Shown: piece after piece, positions 23,942 to 31,478 of the stretch
How positions within the stretch are numbered: position 1 is the stretch's first letter
Layout: each line of letters starts with the position of its first letter
NCBI GenBank assembly: GCA_018302745.1
Contig: JAGVZH010000010.1
Coordinates: 1 to 32,015 of the forward strand
Length of the DNA stretch: 32,015 nucleotides
Origin: Candidatus Woesearchaeota archaeon
Lineage (GTDB): Archaea > Nanobdellota > Nanobdellia > SCGC-AAA011-G17 > JAGVZH01
Direction: 5' to 3'
Translations under genes and position numbers: made by a program
The notes under the pieces: model-generated
What the model saw: only the letters and a program-made list of their open reading frames with translations
What the model was told of the DNA's origin: nothing
Databases searched by the model: none

Positions 23942-25045
23942 TCATTTTACTAATGTTTTTAAAGTTTCAATTAGAACATCAACATCACTTTCTTTATTTA
24001 ATTTTCCCAATGAAAACCTTATAGAATTTTTAGCTGCCTTTTCCCCCTTAATTGCCTTAATAACATGAGAAGGCTCTGATTTAGCAGAAGAGCACGCTGA
24101 ACCAATAGAAGCATAAATTTCATTATCATTTAATTTCAATAATAAAGAATCAGCCTCTATATCTTTAAAATAAATGTTTACATTGTTTGCTAATCTTTTT
24201 TCATTATGACCATTTAGTTCAGTATTTGGAATCTCTTTTAGTATTCTTTGGATTATTTTATTTCTTAATTCAGTTAATCTTTTATTTTCTTTGTCCTTTT
24301 CTTTTTGTATTAATTCCAGAGCAGATGCAAAACCAACTATAGCAGGAATATTATGTGTTCCAGACCTTAAATTATTTTCCTGGCCACCGCCTTGCATCAC
24401 TGATTTCATCTTAATGCTATTTTTTTTATAAAGCAAAGCAGCGCCTTTTGGTCCATACAATTTAGTTGAATTAATAGTAAGCAAATCAACACCTAAGTCT
24501 TTAACATCCAGATTTAATAAAGAAGCTTGGCAGGCATCTGTATGAAAAAGAACATTGTGCTTATGTGCAATTTTAGCTATTGCTTTTACATCCTGTATAG
24601 TTCCAATTTCATTGTTTGCATACATAATTGAAATTAAGAAAGTGTCTTTTATTATTGAATTTTCTAACTTACTTAGATTGATTATTCCATCTTTATCAAC
24701 ATCCAAATAAGTTACTTTAAAACCATGGGTTTCTAGGAATTTGCATGTTTCTAATACAGCAGGATGCTCTGTTTTCTGGGTTATGATGTGTTTTTTGTCT
24801 TTATACAGCCCCTTTAAAGCTAAGTTAATAGACTCTGTTCCTGTAGAAGTAAAAATAATTTCTGATGAAGAGCAGTTTAAAACTTTTGCAGTTTTTTCCC
24901 TTGCATTATCTAAGGCTTCTTTAGCTTCTTTTCCAGGATTGTTTAAGCTTGAAGGATTGCCAAATCTTTCTGAGAAATAAGGCAGCATTGTTTTTAGAAC
25001 TTCTTTTCTTACTGGAGTACAGGATGAATGGTCTAAGTATATCAT
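23942..25045 (-). CDS. Cysteine desulfurase, NifS/IscS-type
   Basis: MIYLDHSSCTPVRKEVL, ETGTESINLAL-type PLP motif, HTDACQ, NSTKLYGPKG (PLP Lys), IGSACSSAK active-site Cys loop. Confidence 0.93.
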   Translation of the reverse strand: MIYLDHSSCTPVRKEVLKTMLPYFSERFGNPSSLNNPGKEAKEALDNAREKTAKVLNCSSSEIIFTSTGTESINLALKGLYKDKKHIITQKTEHPAVLETCKFLETHGFKVTYLDVDKDGIINLSKLENSIIKDTFLISIMYANNEIGTIQDVKAIAKIAHKHNVLFHTDACQASLLNLDVKDLGVDLLTINSTKLYGPKGAALLYKKNSIKMKSVMQGGGQENNLRSGTHNIPAIVGFASALELIQKEKDKENKRLTELRNKIIQRILKEIPNTELNGHNEKRLANNVNIYFKDIEADSLLLKLNDNEIYASIGSACSSAKSEPSHVIKAIKGEKAAKNSIRFSLGKLNKESDVDVLIETLKTLVK

Positions 25046-25767
25046 ATTAATTTATAGCCTTCTTTCTCTAATTGATCTACCAGTTCTTTTCCACCAGTTT
25101 TTTTAATTTCTCCATTAATTAAAACATTTACTTTGTCTGTGTGGACATAATTTAATATTCTCTGGTAATGGGTAATTATTAAAATTCCTGTTCCATTTTC
25201 TCTAGCTTTATTAATACCTTTAGCTATAATTTTCAATGCATCTATATCTGTCCCTGAATCTGCCTCATCTAAAATGGCTATTTTTGGCTTTAGCATTAGT
25301 AGCTGCAAAATTTCCATTTTTTTCTTTTCTCCACCTGAAAAACCCTCATTTAAGTATCTTTTCGCAAAACTTTCATCTATTCCCAAAAAATCCATATTCT
25401 CCTTTAATATTTTTTTAAAATCAATTACTGAAAGTTTGTTTTCTCTTCTTGAATTTACTGCAGATCTAATAAAGCTTGAAATTGTCACGCCTGAAATCTC
25501 TGGAGGATGCTGGAATGACAAAAATAAACCTTCTTTTGCCCTTTTGTCTGTTGTTAAATTTGTAATGTCTTTATCATCTAAAATTATTTTGCCTTTTTTT
25601 AATTCATAATTTTTGTTTCCCATCAAGACATTGCTTAAAGTTGTCTTTCCGGAGCCATTTGGACCCATTAAAGCTACAACTTCTCCCTGATTAACTTCTA
25701 AGTTAATGTTTTTTATAATTTCCTTTCCTTCTACTTCTGCTGTTATATTTTCTACTTTAAGCTTCAT
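25042..25767 (-). CDS. sufC: Fe-S cluster assembly ATPase SufC
   Basis: GPNGSGKTTLSNVLMG (Walker A), SFQHPPEISGV, FSGGEKKKMEILQLL, AILDEADSGTDIDAL. Confidence 0.95.
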   Translation of the reverse strand: MKLKVENITAEVEGKEIIKNINLEVNQGEVVALMGPNGSGKTTLSNVLMGNKNYELKKGKIILDDKDITNLTTDKRAKEGLFLSFQHPPEISGVTISSFIRSAVNSRRENKLSVIDFKKILKENMDFLGIDESFAKRYLNEGFSGGEKKKMEILQLLMLKPKIAILDEADSGTDIDALKIIAKGINKARENGTGILIITHYQRILNYVHTDKVNVLINGEIKKTGGKELVDQLEKEGYKLI

Positions 25768-26125
25768 TTTTATTCAGCCCTTTCTTAATTGCAACCAATG
25801 AAAGCATTGCGCATTTTACTCTCATTGGAGTTAATTTTATTCCTATCATATCTAAAATATCATTTCTTTCAAGATTCTTAATATCCTCGATGTTCTTGCC
25901 CTTGATAGCCTCTGATAATATCGATGCAGTTGCTATTGAAATTGCACAGCCTTCTGACTCATATCTAATATCTTTTAATTTTCCACCCTCTACTTTTAGA
26001 TAAATATGGACTTTATCTCCGCATAATGGGTTTTGGTCAGAGTATTCAATGTTGTAACTATCCAATTTGCCAAAATTTCTTGGCTCTTTATAGTTATCCA
26101 TTATATTTTCTCTGTAAATTGACAT
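25757..26125 (-). CDS. sufU: Fe-S cluster scaffold/sulfur-transfer protein, SufU/IscU-like
   Basis: Three conserved Cys: NPLCGD, SEGCAIS, VKCAMLSL; EPRNFGKL N-terminus. Confidence 0.9.
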   Translation of the reverse strand: MSIYRENIMDNYKEPRNFGKLDSYNIEYSDQNPLCGDKVHIYLKVEGGKLKDIRYESEGCAISIATASILSEAIKGKNIEDIKNLERNDILDMIGIKLTPMRVKCAMLSLVAIKKGLNKNEA

Positions 26126-26126
26126 T

Positions 26127-27320
26127 TTAATTAAACACCTTCCTGGCTTCTTTTAAAGCTTCAGCAACTTTGTCAATATCCTCTTTTGTATTGTAAATAT
26201 AAAAGCTTATTCTGCATGTTGCAGGAACTTTTAATTTGTCCATCAAAACTTGAGCACAATGGTGTCCTGACCTTATGGCAATTTTTTTGTCATTTAATAC
26301 TGCAGACACATCATGAGGATGTATCAATTTATCATTATTGTAAAGATTAAAGGAAATTATTCCTGCCTGGCTTTTTGGCTTGTAGATTTTAATTCCTTCT
26401 ACTTCTGAAAGTTTTTCTAAAGCATATTCTTTTAATTCATTTTCATATTTTTCAATGTTTTCCATCCCAATTTTATTTAAGTAATCAATAGCTGCTGAAA
26501 ATCCCACTGCTGCAGCAACATTAGGAGTTCCTGCCTCAAATTTCCATGGAATATCATTAAAATCAGTATCATCAATTCTGACATCCCTTATCATATCTCC
26601 TCCGTAAAGGAAAGGGGATAATTTTTCTAAGAGTTTTTCTTTACCAAACAATATTCCTAATCCCATTGGACCAAGCATTTTATGCACTGAAAATGCAAAA
26701 AAATCACAATTTAAGTCTTTAAGATCTATTTTTTTATGAGGCGCAGACTGGCATCCATCTATAACTGTAATAATATTATTCTCATTAGCTAATTTGCATA
26801 TTTCTTTTATGTCATTTACACTCCCTGTTGCATTAGAAACATGGGTTAAAGCCAAAATTTTTGTTTTTTCAGTTATTTTATTTTCAATATTTTCTAAAGT
26901 AAAATCTTCATTTACTTTAATTACCGAAAATTTTAAATTTCTTGACTTGCACAATTGTTGCCATGGAACAAAATTGCTGTGATGTTCCATTTCTGTCACT
27001 AAAACTTCATCCCCTTCCTTTAAGTCAGAAGTTAGTGAATAAGCTGCTAAATTTAATGCTTCTGTAGCATTTTTGGTGTAAATTATTTCCTGAGGATTGC
27101 AGTTTAGGAAAGATGCGCATTTTTCCTTTGATTTTTCGTACAGTTCTGTGGACATCTCACTTAAATCATAGACTCCTCTGTGGATATTAGATTTGTATTT
27201 ATTGTAGAAATCAGCTATAGCATTAATTACTTGTTTTGGTGACTGAGAAGTTGCAGATGAGTCTAAGTAAATCAATCCTTCATTGTTTTCAAATATTGGA
27301 AAGTCTTTTTTAACATTCAT
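26127..27320 (-). CDS. sufS: Cysteine desulfurase SufS
   Basis: YLDSSATSQSPKQVI, TEMEHHSNFVPWQ, FSVHKMLGPMGLGIL (PLP Lys), IRSGHHCAQ catalytic Cys. Confidence 0.95.
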   Translation of the reverse strand: MNVKKDFPIFENNEGLIYLDSSATSQSPKQVINAIADFYNKYKSNIHRGVYDLSEMSTELYEKSKEKCASFLNCNPQEIIYTKNATEALNLAAYSLTSDLKEGDEVLVTEMEHHSNFVPWQQLCKSRNLKFSVIKVNEDFTLENIENKITEKTKILALTHVSNATGSVNDIKEICKLANENNIITVIDGCQSAPHKKIDLKDLNCDFFAFSVHKMLGPMGLGILFGKEKLLEKLSPFLYGGDMIRDVRIDDTDFNDIPWKFEAGTPNVAAAVGFSAAIDYLNKIGMENIEKYENELKEYALEKLSEVEGIKIYKPKSQAGIISFNLYNNDKLIHPHDVSAVLNDKKIAIRSGHHCAQVLMDKLKVPATCRISFYIYNTKEDIDKVAEALKEARKVFN

Positions 27321-28417
27321 TTTATTTTATTTTTAACTAATTCAGTTACTTCATCCTTAATCTCTTCAATTGGAATTTCTTTTATTATCGGCTCTATAAA
27401 TCCGGAAACAATTATTTGTTTGGATTCTTTTTCAGATAGTCCTCTTGACATAAGGTAGAACATCTGGGATTTGTCAATTTCCCCCATTGTAGTTCCGTGG
27501 GAGCATTTTACATCATGATTTTCAATTTCCAATTGAGGAACAGCGTCAACTTCAGCTGTTTCATTCAAGGTTAATGCATCTGCTTTTTGATATCCTGATG
27601 ATTTAAAAGCGTTTTTTCCAATTCTGATTAATCCGTTGTAAATGCATTTAGAATTGTCGTCAAAGACATTTTTTACCCTTATATTTGAAACTGTATAGGG
27701 ATCAACATGCTTTGTTGAGTTATTAACATCAAATTGCTGGTTATTAGTACCAATAAAAACACCCAATGAATCTGTTGATGCGCCTTCCTTTTCCAGATTA
27801 GATTCTGTTCTTGAAACGCAAAAGTCAGAGCCAGTAAATAAATCAAACCATTTAACATTGGAGTCTTTGGATGTTTTGGCTTTTTTAAGACAAAAATTAA
27901 ATCTGTTATTTTTTAAATTTTGCAAGTGAATATAATTAATTTTAGCGTTGTCTTTTAGTATTAATTCAACACATTTACTGTAATAATCAGACTCTTTTTC
28001 TGAAAAGTCCTTGTCAATAATTGTTATTTTGGAATTTTCCTCTGCCAAGACAATAACATGAGAAAAGGTGTTTTTGCTGGTATCATTATTCAGGACAATT
28101 GGTTCTTTATTTTGGGAGCCTTTAGGTATTGTAATAAACATAAAGTCATTTAATTCAGAATAATGCAGGGAAGTAAACTTGTTTGTGTTAAAAGGAATAA
28201 CTGAATTAAGATAATCCAAAGAATCCTTATCTTTTTTTGACTTTAATATTATGTTTAATGGGCAATGTATGTATGAAGTAGAATCCAGAGAGTTCTTTAT
28301 TTCATTTAAATTTAATTTAGGCGGATTTAAAGTAATGTTCAAGCCATACTTAAAGTTATAGTCTGGCAACTTTGAAAAAGCTTCTATAGACTTCTGTTTT
28401 AGTGTATTTAATTCCAT
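27317..28417 (-). CDS. sufD: Fe-S assembly protein SufD
   Basis: SufBD core: [53 protein letters not shown]. Confidence 0.92.
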   Translation of the reverse strand: MELNTLKQKSIEAFSKLPDYNFKYGLNITLNPPKLNLNEIKNSLDSTSYIHCPLNIILKSKKDKDSLDYLNSVIPFNTNKFTSLHYSELNDFMFITIPKGSQNKEPIVLNNDTSKNTFSHVIVLAEENSKITIIDKDFSEKESDYYSKCVELILKDNAKINYIHLQNLKNNRFNFCLKKAKTSKDSNVKWFDLFTGSDFCVSRTESNLEKEGASTDSLGVFIGTNNQQFDVNNSTKHVDPYTVSNIRVKNVFDDNSKCIYNGLIRIGKNAFKSSGYQKADALTLNETAEVDAVPQLEIENHDVKCSHGTTMGEIDKSQMFYLMSRGLSEKESKQIIVSGFIEPIIKEIPIEEIKDEVTELVKNKIK

Positions 28418-28435: not shown

Positions 28436-29833
28436 TCAACCTAATGAGCCCTCCATCTCCATCTCTATTAGTTTATTCATCTCTACTGCATACTCTATTG
28501 GCAGCTCTTTTATTATCGGCTCTATAAATCCGGAAACAATCATTTTTCTCGCTTCCTCTTCTGATAATCCTCTGGACATCAAGTAGAACAACTGCTCTTC
28601 TCCAATTCTTGAGACAGTAGCTTCATGCTCTATTGAGGATTTTTTATTTTCTCTTTTCATGTAAGGAATTGTGTTTGATATTGACTCATTATCTGTCATC
28701 AAAGCGTCGCATTGGACATTAGATTTTGAATGAATAGCATTTTTATTGATATGGACCAATCCTCTGTAAGAAGCAATTCCTCCTCCTTTGGCAATGCTTT
28801 TGTTTACTATTGTTGAAGATGTATTTTTAGCTAAATGATAGATTTTAGCTCCAACATCCTGATTTTGGTTTTTGTTTGCAAAAGCAATCGATAGATGATC
28901 TGCTCTTGAATTTTCTCCTTTTAACATTGAACATGGATAGACCATACTAAGTTTTGATCCCATATTGCCAGTTACCCATTCCATTACTGCATTTTTTTCA
29001 ACAAAAGCCCTTTTTGTGTTTAAGTTGTATGTGTTTTTTGACCAGTTTTCAACACTTGAATATCTCATCCTTGCATTATTATGAACAAAGATTTCTACAC
29101 ATCCAGCATGAAGTGAATTGTTGTTATATTGAGGGGCAGAGCATCCTTCAACATAGTGAAGTTCGGCGCCTTCATCTACAATAATTAAAGTATGTTCAAA
29201 TTGCCCCATGTCGGCGGAATTCATTCTAAAGTATGCTTGCAGAGGCATGTCAACTTTTACATTTTTTGGAATGTAAATAAAAGTTCCTCCACTCCAAAAT
29301 GCCCCGTGCAAGGCAACATATTTATGCAGAGTTGGCGGAACACATTTCATAAAATATTTTTTAAATAATTCTTCATGCTCTTTTAAAGCAACATCGCAAT
29401 CAACGAAAATAACGCCTTGTTTTGCTAAATCCTCCCTTATGTTATGATACACAACTTCAGACTCAAATTGGGCTCCTGCTCCTGCCAAGGTTTTTCTTTC
29501 TGCTTCTGGAATTCCTAATTTATCAAAAACTTTTTTAATATCTTCAGGAACATCCTTCCAGTCTTTGGAGTTTTTTCTTGCTTCAGGCTTTACATAATAA
29601 GTTATTTTATTCAAATCTAAATCAGACAAATCAGGCCCCCAATTAGGTGTTTCCAGTTTGTTGAAAATTTCCAGGCATTTTAATCTGAAATCAAGCATCC
29701 ACTTAGGTTCAGTCTTATCTTTGGAGATTTCCCTTACAACATCTTCATTAATGCCTTCTTTTGCCTTATAAGCATACTTCAAAGTAGATGGCTTGTCTAA
29801 AAATTCTCTGGTTTCCTGAAATGAAGTTTCCAT
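28436..29833 (-). CDS. sufB: Fe-S assembly scaffold SufB
   Basis: Full SufB motifs: [70 protein letters not shown]. Confidence 0.96.
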
Positions 29834-29836
29834 TTT

Positions 29837-30397
29837 TTAATAAAAGGATGATCCGCAACCGCAGGTTCCTGCTGCATTTGGGTTTGAAATCTTAAAACCA
29901 GAACCCTGCAATGAATCAACATAATTAATTGTAATTCCTTTTAATTTTTCAAGTGTATCCTTGTTTATGAAGATTTTAGCTCCATTTTTTTCAAAAACCT
30001 CATCATTCTCTTTTGGTGACTCGTCAAAGTCAAAGATATATTGTAATCCAGAACATCCTCCTGAGGAAACCTCAACTCTAAATCCCTGGCCTTCCCTGTT
30101 TTCTGCTTTTAGCAGCTGCTTTATTTTGTCAGCAGCCTTGTCAGTTATTGTTATTCCTTCAGAAGACTTTTCAGATCTTTCAACTGCCTCATTTAAGGTT
30201 TTTACTATTTTAGTTATTTGTTCATCTGTCATCCCATGCCCTCTAAGACCCTGCCCTAAAGTTTCTATTGGCGATATTCCGCAGCCTATGCAGTGAACTC
30301 CTGTTTTCATTAAAGGCTCAACTGCAGCAGGAAATTTGTCTACTATCTCTCCTATGAGAGTATCTTCTGTAATTTTACTTTGCTGTATTGTTTCCAT
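29837..30397 (-). CDS. DUF1858 domain fused to A-type carrier (SufA/HesB/IscA-like)
   Basis: N-terminal DUF1858-like EDTLIGEIVDKFPAAVEPLMKTGVHCIGCGISPIETLGQG. C-terminal A-type carrier SSGGCSGLQYIFDFDE...NPNAAGTCGCGSSF. Confidence 0.92.
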   Translation of the reverse strand: METIQQSKITEDTLIGEIVDKFPAAVEPLMKTGVHCIGCGISPIETLGQGLRGHGMTDEQITKIVKTLNEAVERSEKSSEGITITDKAADKIKQLLKAENREGQGFRVEVSSGGCSGLQYIFDFDESPKENDEVFEKNGAKIFINKDTLEKLKGITINYVDSLQGSGFKISNPNAAGTCGCGSSFY

Positions 30398-30406
30398 TTT
30401 TCCCTC

Positions 30407-30763
30407 CTATCTTTTACAATAATCACAAATTTTGTTGTCAAAAGTGTCTAATTGCTTATGAACCTGGCAGATTAAGTCTGATTTTCTAAAATCACGGCAT
30501 AATTCATTAATCTCTTGTATGACTAAAAAGTGGTTTTGTGCTATTTTTTTTGCTGATTCATCTATTAGTTTTTGGAATTCTTCATTAAACTTGACTTCTT
30601 TAGCTCTTTTTTCTGAAATATACTGGGAGATCGCTGCTGGTGTTATTCCTAATATTTGGGCTACTGCTTTTTGGGATAAGCTGAATTTGATTAAAGCTTT
30701 GGCTAATTCTCTTCTTATTGCAGGTATTATGTATAAAACTTCTATCTCTTGTGGCTGTAACAT
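30407..30763 (-). CDS. HTH (Xre-like) transcriptional regulator with Cys-rich C-terminus, candidate SUF operon regulator
   Basis: KALIKFSLSQKAVAQILGITPAAISQYISEKRAK HTH. C-terminal LC...IC QVH...IC DYC cluster. First gene of the SUF-directed minus-strand run. Confidence 0.8.
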   Translation of the reverse strand: MLQPQEIEVLYIIPAIRRELAKALIKFSLSQKAVAQILGITPAAISQYISEKRAKEVKFNEEFQKLIDESAKKIAQNHFLVIQEINELCRDFRKSDLICQVHKQLDTFDNKICDYCKR

Positions 30764-30764
30764 A

Positions 30765-30781
30765 AATTAACGGCGTTAATT
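30765..30781. promoter_or_regulatory. 17-bp perfect palindrome AATTAACG-G-CGTTAATT, candidate operator of the SUF operon
   Basis: 8-bp perfect arms around one central base, 2 nt upstream of the regulator ATG and abutting the minus-strand TATA box. Confidence 0.75.
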
Positions 30782-30793
30782 CTATATATAAAG
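30782..30793 (-). promoter_or_regulatory. TATA box of the SUF operon
   Basis: ctttatatatag on the minus strand, about 25 nt upstream of the regulator start codon; suggests a leaderless or short-leader transcript. Confidence 0.6.
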
Positions 30794-30905
30794 ATTTCGG
30801 ATGGATTGGTTTTGCACAAAAAGTTAATTTTAATGAAGATCAGGTCTAAAATCTATATTTGCGTAGGCTAATATTTATAATAGTTAAAAGTATATATTTA
30901 TCGTG

Positions 30906-31478
30906 ATGAAATTGGAAAGTAGCCATCAAGTTACTATTGAGAGATTGCATTTAAAAGTAGATGAAGATGGTAATTTAATACTGCCTCAGAAAAAGATTTT
31001 GCTTGATGCTAATCCTATAATTTTTATGATGTGGTATAAAAAAGAAAAATACGGAGAAGATGTTTTAGATATTTTTGATGAAGAAAATATAGTATGGATT
31101 AATAATATAATTTATGATGAAGTGTTAGGAGTTTTATTAAATAAATCTCCCTATGATGGGATGTACAAAGATAAAGAAGAAACTAAAAAAGCAATAAACA
31201 AATTTCTAAAAGAAAATAAAATACAACTTGATGATAATCCGAATATTGGAAAAAATAATATACAATTAGTGAGGAGTAAAGCAAAGAAGACAAAATCTAG
31301 AGCTGGTGAAATAGATAAATTCATTTTAGCATATTGCTTATCCAATGATATTGAGATTGTTTATTCTAATGATAGAGAGTTCAGAAAATTGGCTACTTTT
31401 TTGGGATTAGATGCTAGAAATTTTGAATCTAATGAGGATAAATTAAACAAAAAGCTCAAGTCAGCATTTAGAAAATAA
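30906..31478 (+). CDS. PIN-domain-like putative ribonuclease
   Basis: KILLDANPIIFMMW, NIIYDEVLG, GEIDKFILAYCLSNDIEIVYSNDREFRKLA: acidic residues in PIN-like order. GTG at 30903 is also possible. Confidence 0.7.
   Translation: MKLESSHQVTIERLHLKVDEDGNLILPQKKILLDANPIIFMMWYKKEKYGEDVLDIFDEENIVWINNIIYDEVLGVLLNKSPYDGMYKDKEETKKAINKFLKENKIQLDDNPNIGKNNIQLVRSKAKKTKSRAGEIDKFILAYCLSNDIEIVYSNDREFRKLATFLGLDARNFESNEDKLNKKLKSAFRK

Follow-up and report, generated by a model that had tools for sequence, protein, structure and literature searches.

Does the helix-turn-helix (HTH) protein encoded at the head of a SUF operon in a Candidatus Woesearchaeota genome control that operon through the palindrome in its own promoter, and is it the cellular status of iron-sulfur (Fe-S) clusters that it reads? 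The window analyzed here, a stretch of 32,015 nucleotides, carries an eight-gene operon that runs on the minus strand from 30763 to 23942 in the order regulator, DUF1858-SufA, sufB, sufD, sufS, sufU, sufC and an IscS/NifS-type desulfurase, with adjacent genes 0-19 nt apart or slightly overlapping and with sufA no more than 10 nt after the regulator (Table 1). The desulfurase of the last gene matches TIGR03402 with E=6.5e-134, below the cut-off of that model, and the subfamily model NF002806 above its own cut-off. An initial annotation had described the first gene as an HTH reading frame with Cys and His residues near its C terminus and its promoter as holding a palindrome squeezed into the gap from TATA box to ATG, and both descriptions prove exact.

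The palindrome AATTAACGGCGTTAATT occurs only once in exact form in the genome of 701,703 bases, with the regulator’s ATG (30763-30761, minus strand) directly 3' of it. Set against the usual archaeal TATA-to-start distance, the distance from TATA box to ATG suggests that the transcript is leaderless and starts at about 30760-30763; with the start at or beside the ATG, the palindrome would occupy the whole interval that separates TATA box from start site, and a protein bound there would block the polymerase. Taken as a bare 8-1-8 dyad the palindrome is not unusual, as the window holds two perfect ones vs. 1.15 expected in shuffled sequence, and its significance thus derives from position and conservation rather than from the dyad alone. 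A PIN-domain gene (30903-31478) lies divergent from the SUF operon, with no operator of its own visible.

Table 1. Features of the regulator gene, its promoter and the SUF operon in the window
Feature	Position	Strand	Basis or remark
Operator palindrome AATTAACGGCGTTAATT	30765-30781	.	17 bp, exact, unique in genome
Conserved core TTAACGCCGTTAA within palindrome	30767-30779		13-bp, N3-spacer form of family operator
TATA-like element CTTTATATATAG	30782-30793	minus	sequence
Regulator, 118 aa	30407-30763	minus	HTH_3 + helical linker + C-terminal C-x2-H-x10-C-x2-C; ORF, Pfam, AlphaFold2
Regulator HTH region, residues 20-54	30602-30706	minus	Pfam
Regulator T41 codon	30641-30643	minus	residue varying with operator base
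Putative metal/cluster site C99-x2-H102-x10-C113-x2-C116	30416-30469	minus	residue conservation in 63 relatives
SufA-type carrier with N-terminal DUF1858 domain	29837-30397	minus	Pfam Fe-S_biosyn + DUF1858; TIGR00049
sufB	28436-29833	minus	TIGR01980, E=1.4e-216
sufD	27317-28417	minus	TIGR01981
sufS cysteine desulfurase	26127-27320	minus	TIGR01979
sufU/iscU-type scaffold	25757-26125	minus	TIGR01994
sufC ATPase	25042-25767	minus	TIGR01978
IscS/NifS-type cysteine desulfurase, last operon gene	23942-25045	minus	TIGR03402 + NF002806
			

By its sequence the regulator is an HTH_3 protein of the XRE/Cro-like superfamily (E=7.4e-6, 26.3 bits vs. a gathering cut-off of 23), as are 30 of 40 relatives matched to the same model, and it belongs to a family that includes the N-terminal part of ThiR, here without the ThiN domain. 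Pfam and NCBIfam models cover only the HTH part of the regulator and of these 40 relatives, and none of them names the family. Relatives are found in 234 of 371 genomes sampled from the phylum, the closest (55-56% identity) in another genome from the same family, apparently the Woesearchaeota record CP066683.1. While a scan of GTDB with the single regulator sequence returned no relatives, one with a 40-sequence profile returned 249, and the 80 of these that were kept carry the labels Woesearchaeota, Pacearchaeota, Micrarchaeota, Aenigmatarchaeota, Parvarchaeota or Nanoarchaeota or come from unnamed archaea. All of 63 relatives compared have C99 and C113, 62 have C116 and 56 have H102, which is replaced by Cys in three and by Tyr in four; C89, the cysteine of the ELC motif, is kept in only 19, so that from the set of four Cys and a His first put forward as cluster ligands three cysteines and the histidine stand and C89 drops out. 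The AlphaFold2 model, built on a 62-sequence alignment, is helical with a mean pLDDT of 90, the tail with the three cysteines and the histidine (CHCC) being less certain at 64-74, and comparison with the PDB by sequence and fold yielded generic HTH matches only, with no significant match to the whole protein.

The DNA side of the system is conserved along with the protein. An exact TTAAC-N3/4-GTTAA stands upstream (within about 150 bp) of 38 of the 63 orthologues vs. 0.1% of dinucleotide shuffles, which contradicts the lack of conservation that the initial annotation had named as refuting its proposal, and with at most one mismatch it is found upstream of 47 (shuffles, 4%). Upstream of the regulators such sites are 246 times as dense as in the remainder of these loci. 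In 32 of 47 relatives a TATA-like box is present no more than 22 bp 5' of the operator, compared with 10 of 186 control windows. Of 82 N4 operators, 81 have AT as their central pair of bases, though the search did not require it, which gives the form TTMAC-NATN-GTKAA. The 13-bp form with an N3 spacer is shared by the window and seven other loci (L033, L045, L080, L140, L157, L166 and L170); N3 operators mostly lack the central AT that is near-invariant in the 14-bp form. At the scale of whole genomes TTAACNATNGTTAA is present in 159 of the 234 that have the regulator vs. 26 of the 137 that lack it (odds ratio 9, p=2e-20, uncorrected for shared ancestry), and a reversed control pattern occurs at a similarly low frequency in the two groups of the 371 genomes. 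Operator sites occur in 185 of the 371, and most site-bearing genomes have one or two.

The genes next to the regulator point to its main target. We collected 111 distinct regulators, 109 of them evaluable for gene neighborhood, and 90 of these adjoin Fe-S assembly genes of either the SUF (42) or the ISC (48) type, which lie downstream of the regulator in 78 cases and divergent from it in 12. The operator accompanies 75 of the 90 linked regulators and one of the 19 unlinked ones (p=1e-10, shared ancestry not corrected for), the other 18 being without it; in the genome of one unlinked regulator (G339) the operator is instead found 5 bp before sufB (L242). Together, operator conservation and linkage strongly support the earlier proposals of autoregulation through the palindrome and of control over the SUF operon, and make it very likely that Fe-S assembly is autoregulated through this operator. 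At one locus (L157:4974-6494), behind the operator TTAACAATGTTAA, the reading frame of the regulator continues into that of a cysteine desulfurase (HTH_3 + Aminotran_5); the fusion is tentative, as it comes from one MAG only, and is possibly an assembly artifact.

Variation in the operator is mirrored in the protein. In an unbiased scan of all 118 regulator residues against operator class, residue 41, which lies in the HTH motif and adjoins the predicted helix 42-49, scored best of all positions (CC vs. AA operators, p=2e-7, again uncorrected for shared ancestry): it is T or S with 61 of 63 TTAAC/GTTAA operators (non-T/S in two) and A or R with all six symmetric TTCAC/GTGAA operators, including that of an Aenigmatarchaeota MAG (L139). 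Since the variant operators accompany a changed residue 41, the regulator most likely binds the TTAAC-type operator itself, and of the indirect signs of such binding this covariation is the strongest.

Sites away from the regulator extend the list of candidate targets. They were surveyed in 34 genomes and in several many-site genomes, the latter chosen for that property, so that the proportions do not represent a random sample. Among the genes at or just after these sites are those for Fe/Mn superoxide dismutase (six genomes), a DUF1858-SufA carrier (four), FTR1 iron permease (three), AhpC-type peroxiredoxin (two) and ferredoxin (two), together with cysteine desulfurase, DsbA-like thioredoxins, MsrAB, DoxX (two genomes), radical SAM/B12 proteins and one hemerythrin; some further sites are intragenic or precede genes without an obvious connection. 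A search of the window’s own genome with N3/N4 spacers gives four sites vs. three for the reversed control, and no second target can therefore be claimed there. A two-mismatch site in C45, considered as an extra operator, is not convincing. In two genomes of one family the operator precedes a gene for an amino-acid-kinase-domain protein (L214:2202-3482 and L218:468-1757), and another genome (G042, L276-L280) carries five exact operator copies, none near a gene start in simple ORF calls, which may be part of a repeat.

How does such a regulator relate to those already known to govern Fe-S assembly? IscR binds a [2Fe-2S] cluster with three Cys and one His. The window locus resembles those of IscR and RisR, both of the Rrf2 family, in that the regulator is the first gene of the operon, has a palindrome in its promoter and a Cys-rich site, and probably represses itself together with the assembly operon, and across the family of the window regulator the candidate regulon, like theirs, reaches into oxidative stress (regulatory logic of IscR and RisR in PMC8593673 and PMC9973013). 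Unlike them, the window regulator is an HTH_3/Cro-like protein with C-x2-H-x10-C-x2-C spacing and a TTAAC-N3/4-GTTAA operator, and no Rrf2 model is among the Pfam and NCBIfam matches listed for it and its 40 relatives. SufR, a DeoR-type protein of Cyanobacteria and Actinobacteria, is likewise a dedicated regulator of the suf locus, with a [4Fe-4S] site in its C-terminal part ligated by C-X12-C-X13-C-X14-C (PMC8593673). The window protein, with 118 aa, another class of HTH and its C-x2-H-x10-C-x2-C tail, does not share this ligand spacing, in keeping with the original assignment to a family distinct from both SufR and IscR. Archaea also control stress genes with regulators that respond to thiols or redox state, namely SurR, MsvR and the OxsR-type proteins, which belong to other fold families with other operators. 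Unlike the window regulator, they were not found heading Fe-S operons here; MsvR (PMC3729527) and a TrmB-type regulator (PMC9426492) exemplify archaeal redox regulation. The ThiR-type thiamine regulators of archaea (HTH_3 + ThiN) are homologous to the window protein over residues 4-118, including the HTH and all four CHCC residues, with 26-29% identity and tblastn E-values down to 1e-8. ThiR has a ThiN domain (PF10120) at its C terminus and thiamine genes for neighbors, whereas the window protein stops past its CHCC motif and stands with SUF genes; the ThiN-type matches are haloarchaeal plasmid proteins in thiamine loci, and thiamine operons have been named as being under ThiR regulation (PMC10746257). 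The presence of CHCC in these ThiN-domain regulators suggests an ancestral, possibly structural metal site.

In light of these results we propose, with a probability of about 60% for the model as a whole, that the regulator is a dimeric HTH feedback repressor with a CHCC sensor, from a family spread over DPANN archaea whose members adjoin SUF or ISC operons and, in some genomes, oxidative-stress and iron genes. As a dimer it would sit on TTAACGCCGTTAA, in the gap from its TATA box to its start codon, and so keep its own eight-gene SUF operon from being initiated. The C-x2-H-x10-C-x2-C site would be the likely sensor of cluster status: with its ligand in place, most likely an Fe-S cluster that the operon’s own products assemble, it would bring about repression, and when clusters are scarce, or are lost to oxidants or iron lack, the regulator would leave the operator. 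Conservation, linkage, operator position, regulon content and protein-operator covariation support this model, in which dimerization, direct binding, repression as the sign of control and the identity of the cluster are inferred. Regulon content and the invariant ligands make Fe-S binding by the CHCC motif plausible, and we consider it slightly more probable than its opposite that the regulator senses Fe-S clusters.

The strongest competing explanation, in our view possible and clearly less probable, keeps the same operator and regulon and places a structural or redox-active zinc in the CHCC site, making the protein an oxidant sensor or a constitutive feedback brake. C-x2-H...C-x2-C is a common zinc ligand pattern, the replacement of H102 by Cys in some relatives is one that zinc sites tolerate, and oxidant-defense genes are among the extra targets; furthermore, all four CHCC residues are kept in haloarchaeal ThiN-domain regulators found with thiamine genes, so that the module is not confined to an Fe-S role, may be a zinc site, and makes structural zinc a serious alternative. 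Against this, the core target in SUF and ISC genomes alike is Fe-S assembly, the A-type carrier, ferredoxin and FTR1 among the extra targets are easier to reconcile with a signal of Fe-S or iron status than with oxidants alone, and stand-alone members of the family have no other evident sensor. That CHCC instead holds a mononuclear Fe2+, following a logic like that of Fur or DtxR, is improbable: the operator does precede FTR1 iron permease genes in three genomes, but Fe2+ sensors mostly use N/O ligands, for which a thiolate-rich site would be unusual, and the core target is cluster assembly rather than uptake. Finally, we can practically dismiss the reading that the palindrome arose by chance or has some other role, for instance for the PIN-domain gene (30903) that diverges from the operon. 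Chance alone predicts roughly one perfect 8-1-8 dyad in each window, and the dyad by itself is not significant, but conservation across the phylum and position rule out chance and covariation with the protein speaks against it as well.

If the Fe-S feedback model holds, DPANN archaea would gain a dedicated regulator of Fe-S assembly with a readable operator, few targets and one residue that determines which operator is preferred, three properties that make it directly testable with purified protein. It would also mean that feedback on Fe-S assembly evolved at least twice, with unrelated DNA-binding folds. Rrf2 regulators such as IscR are rare in archaea, only five of 641 sequences in a survey of 553 proteomes being archaeal (PMC9973013). 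In the open-access literature we found neither a description of this family nor one of a regulator dedicated to SUF or ISC in archaea, and the names “IssR” (an archaeal regulator) and COG2522 led to none either; a prior description in subscription papers is possible. COG2522 we take to comprise archaeal HTH regulators and to be a possible profile for the family. The broadest statement, to which we give even odds, is that of an undescribed archaeal family of Fe-S sensors that joins a Cro-like HTH to a Cys3-His site, acts as a general feedback and oxidative-stress regulator of SUF and ISC across DPANN, evolved independently of IscR and SufR, and has its sensor module in common with the thiamine regulators of other archaea. 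Given the shared CHCC motif, the metal of ThiR-type regulators seems of interest too. The same C-x2-H...C-x2-C arrangement is seen in a haloarchaeal ThiN-domain regulator at L316:2986-3912.
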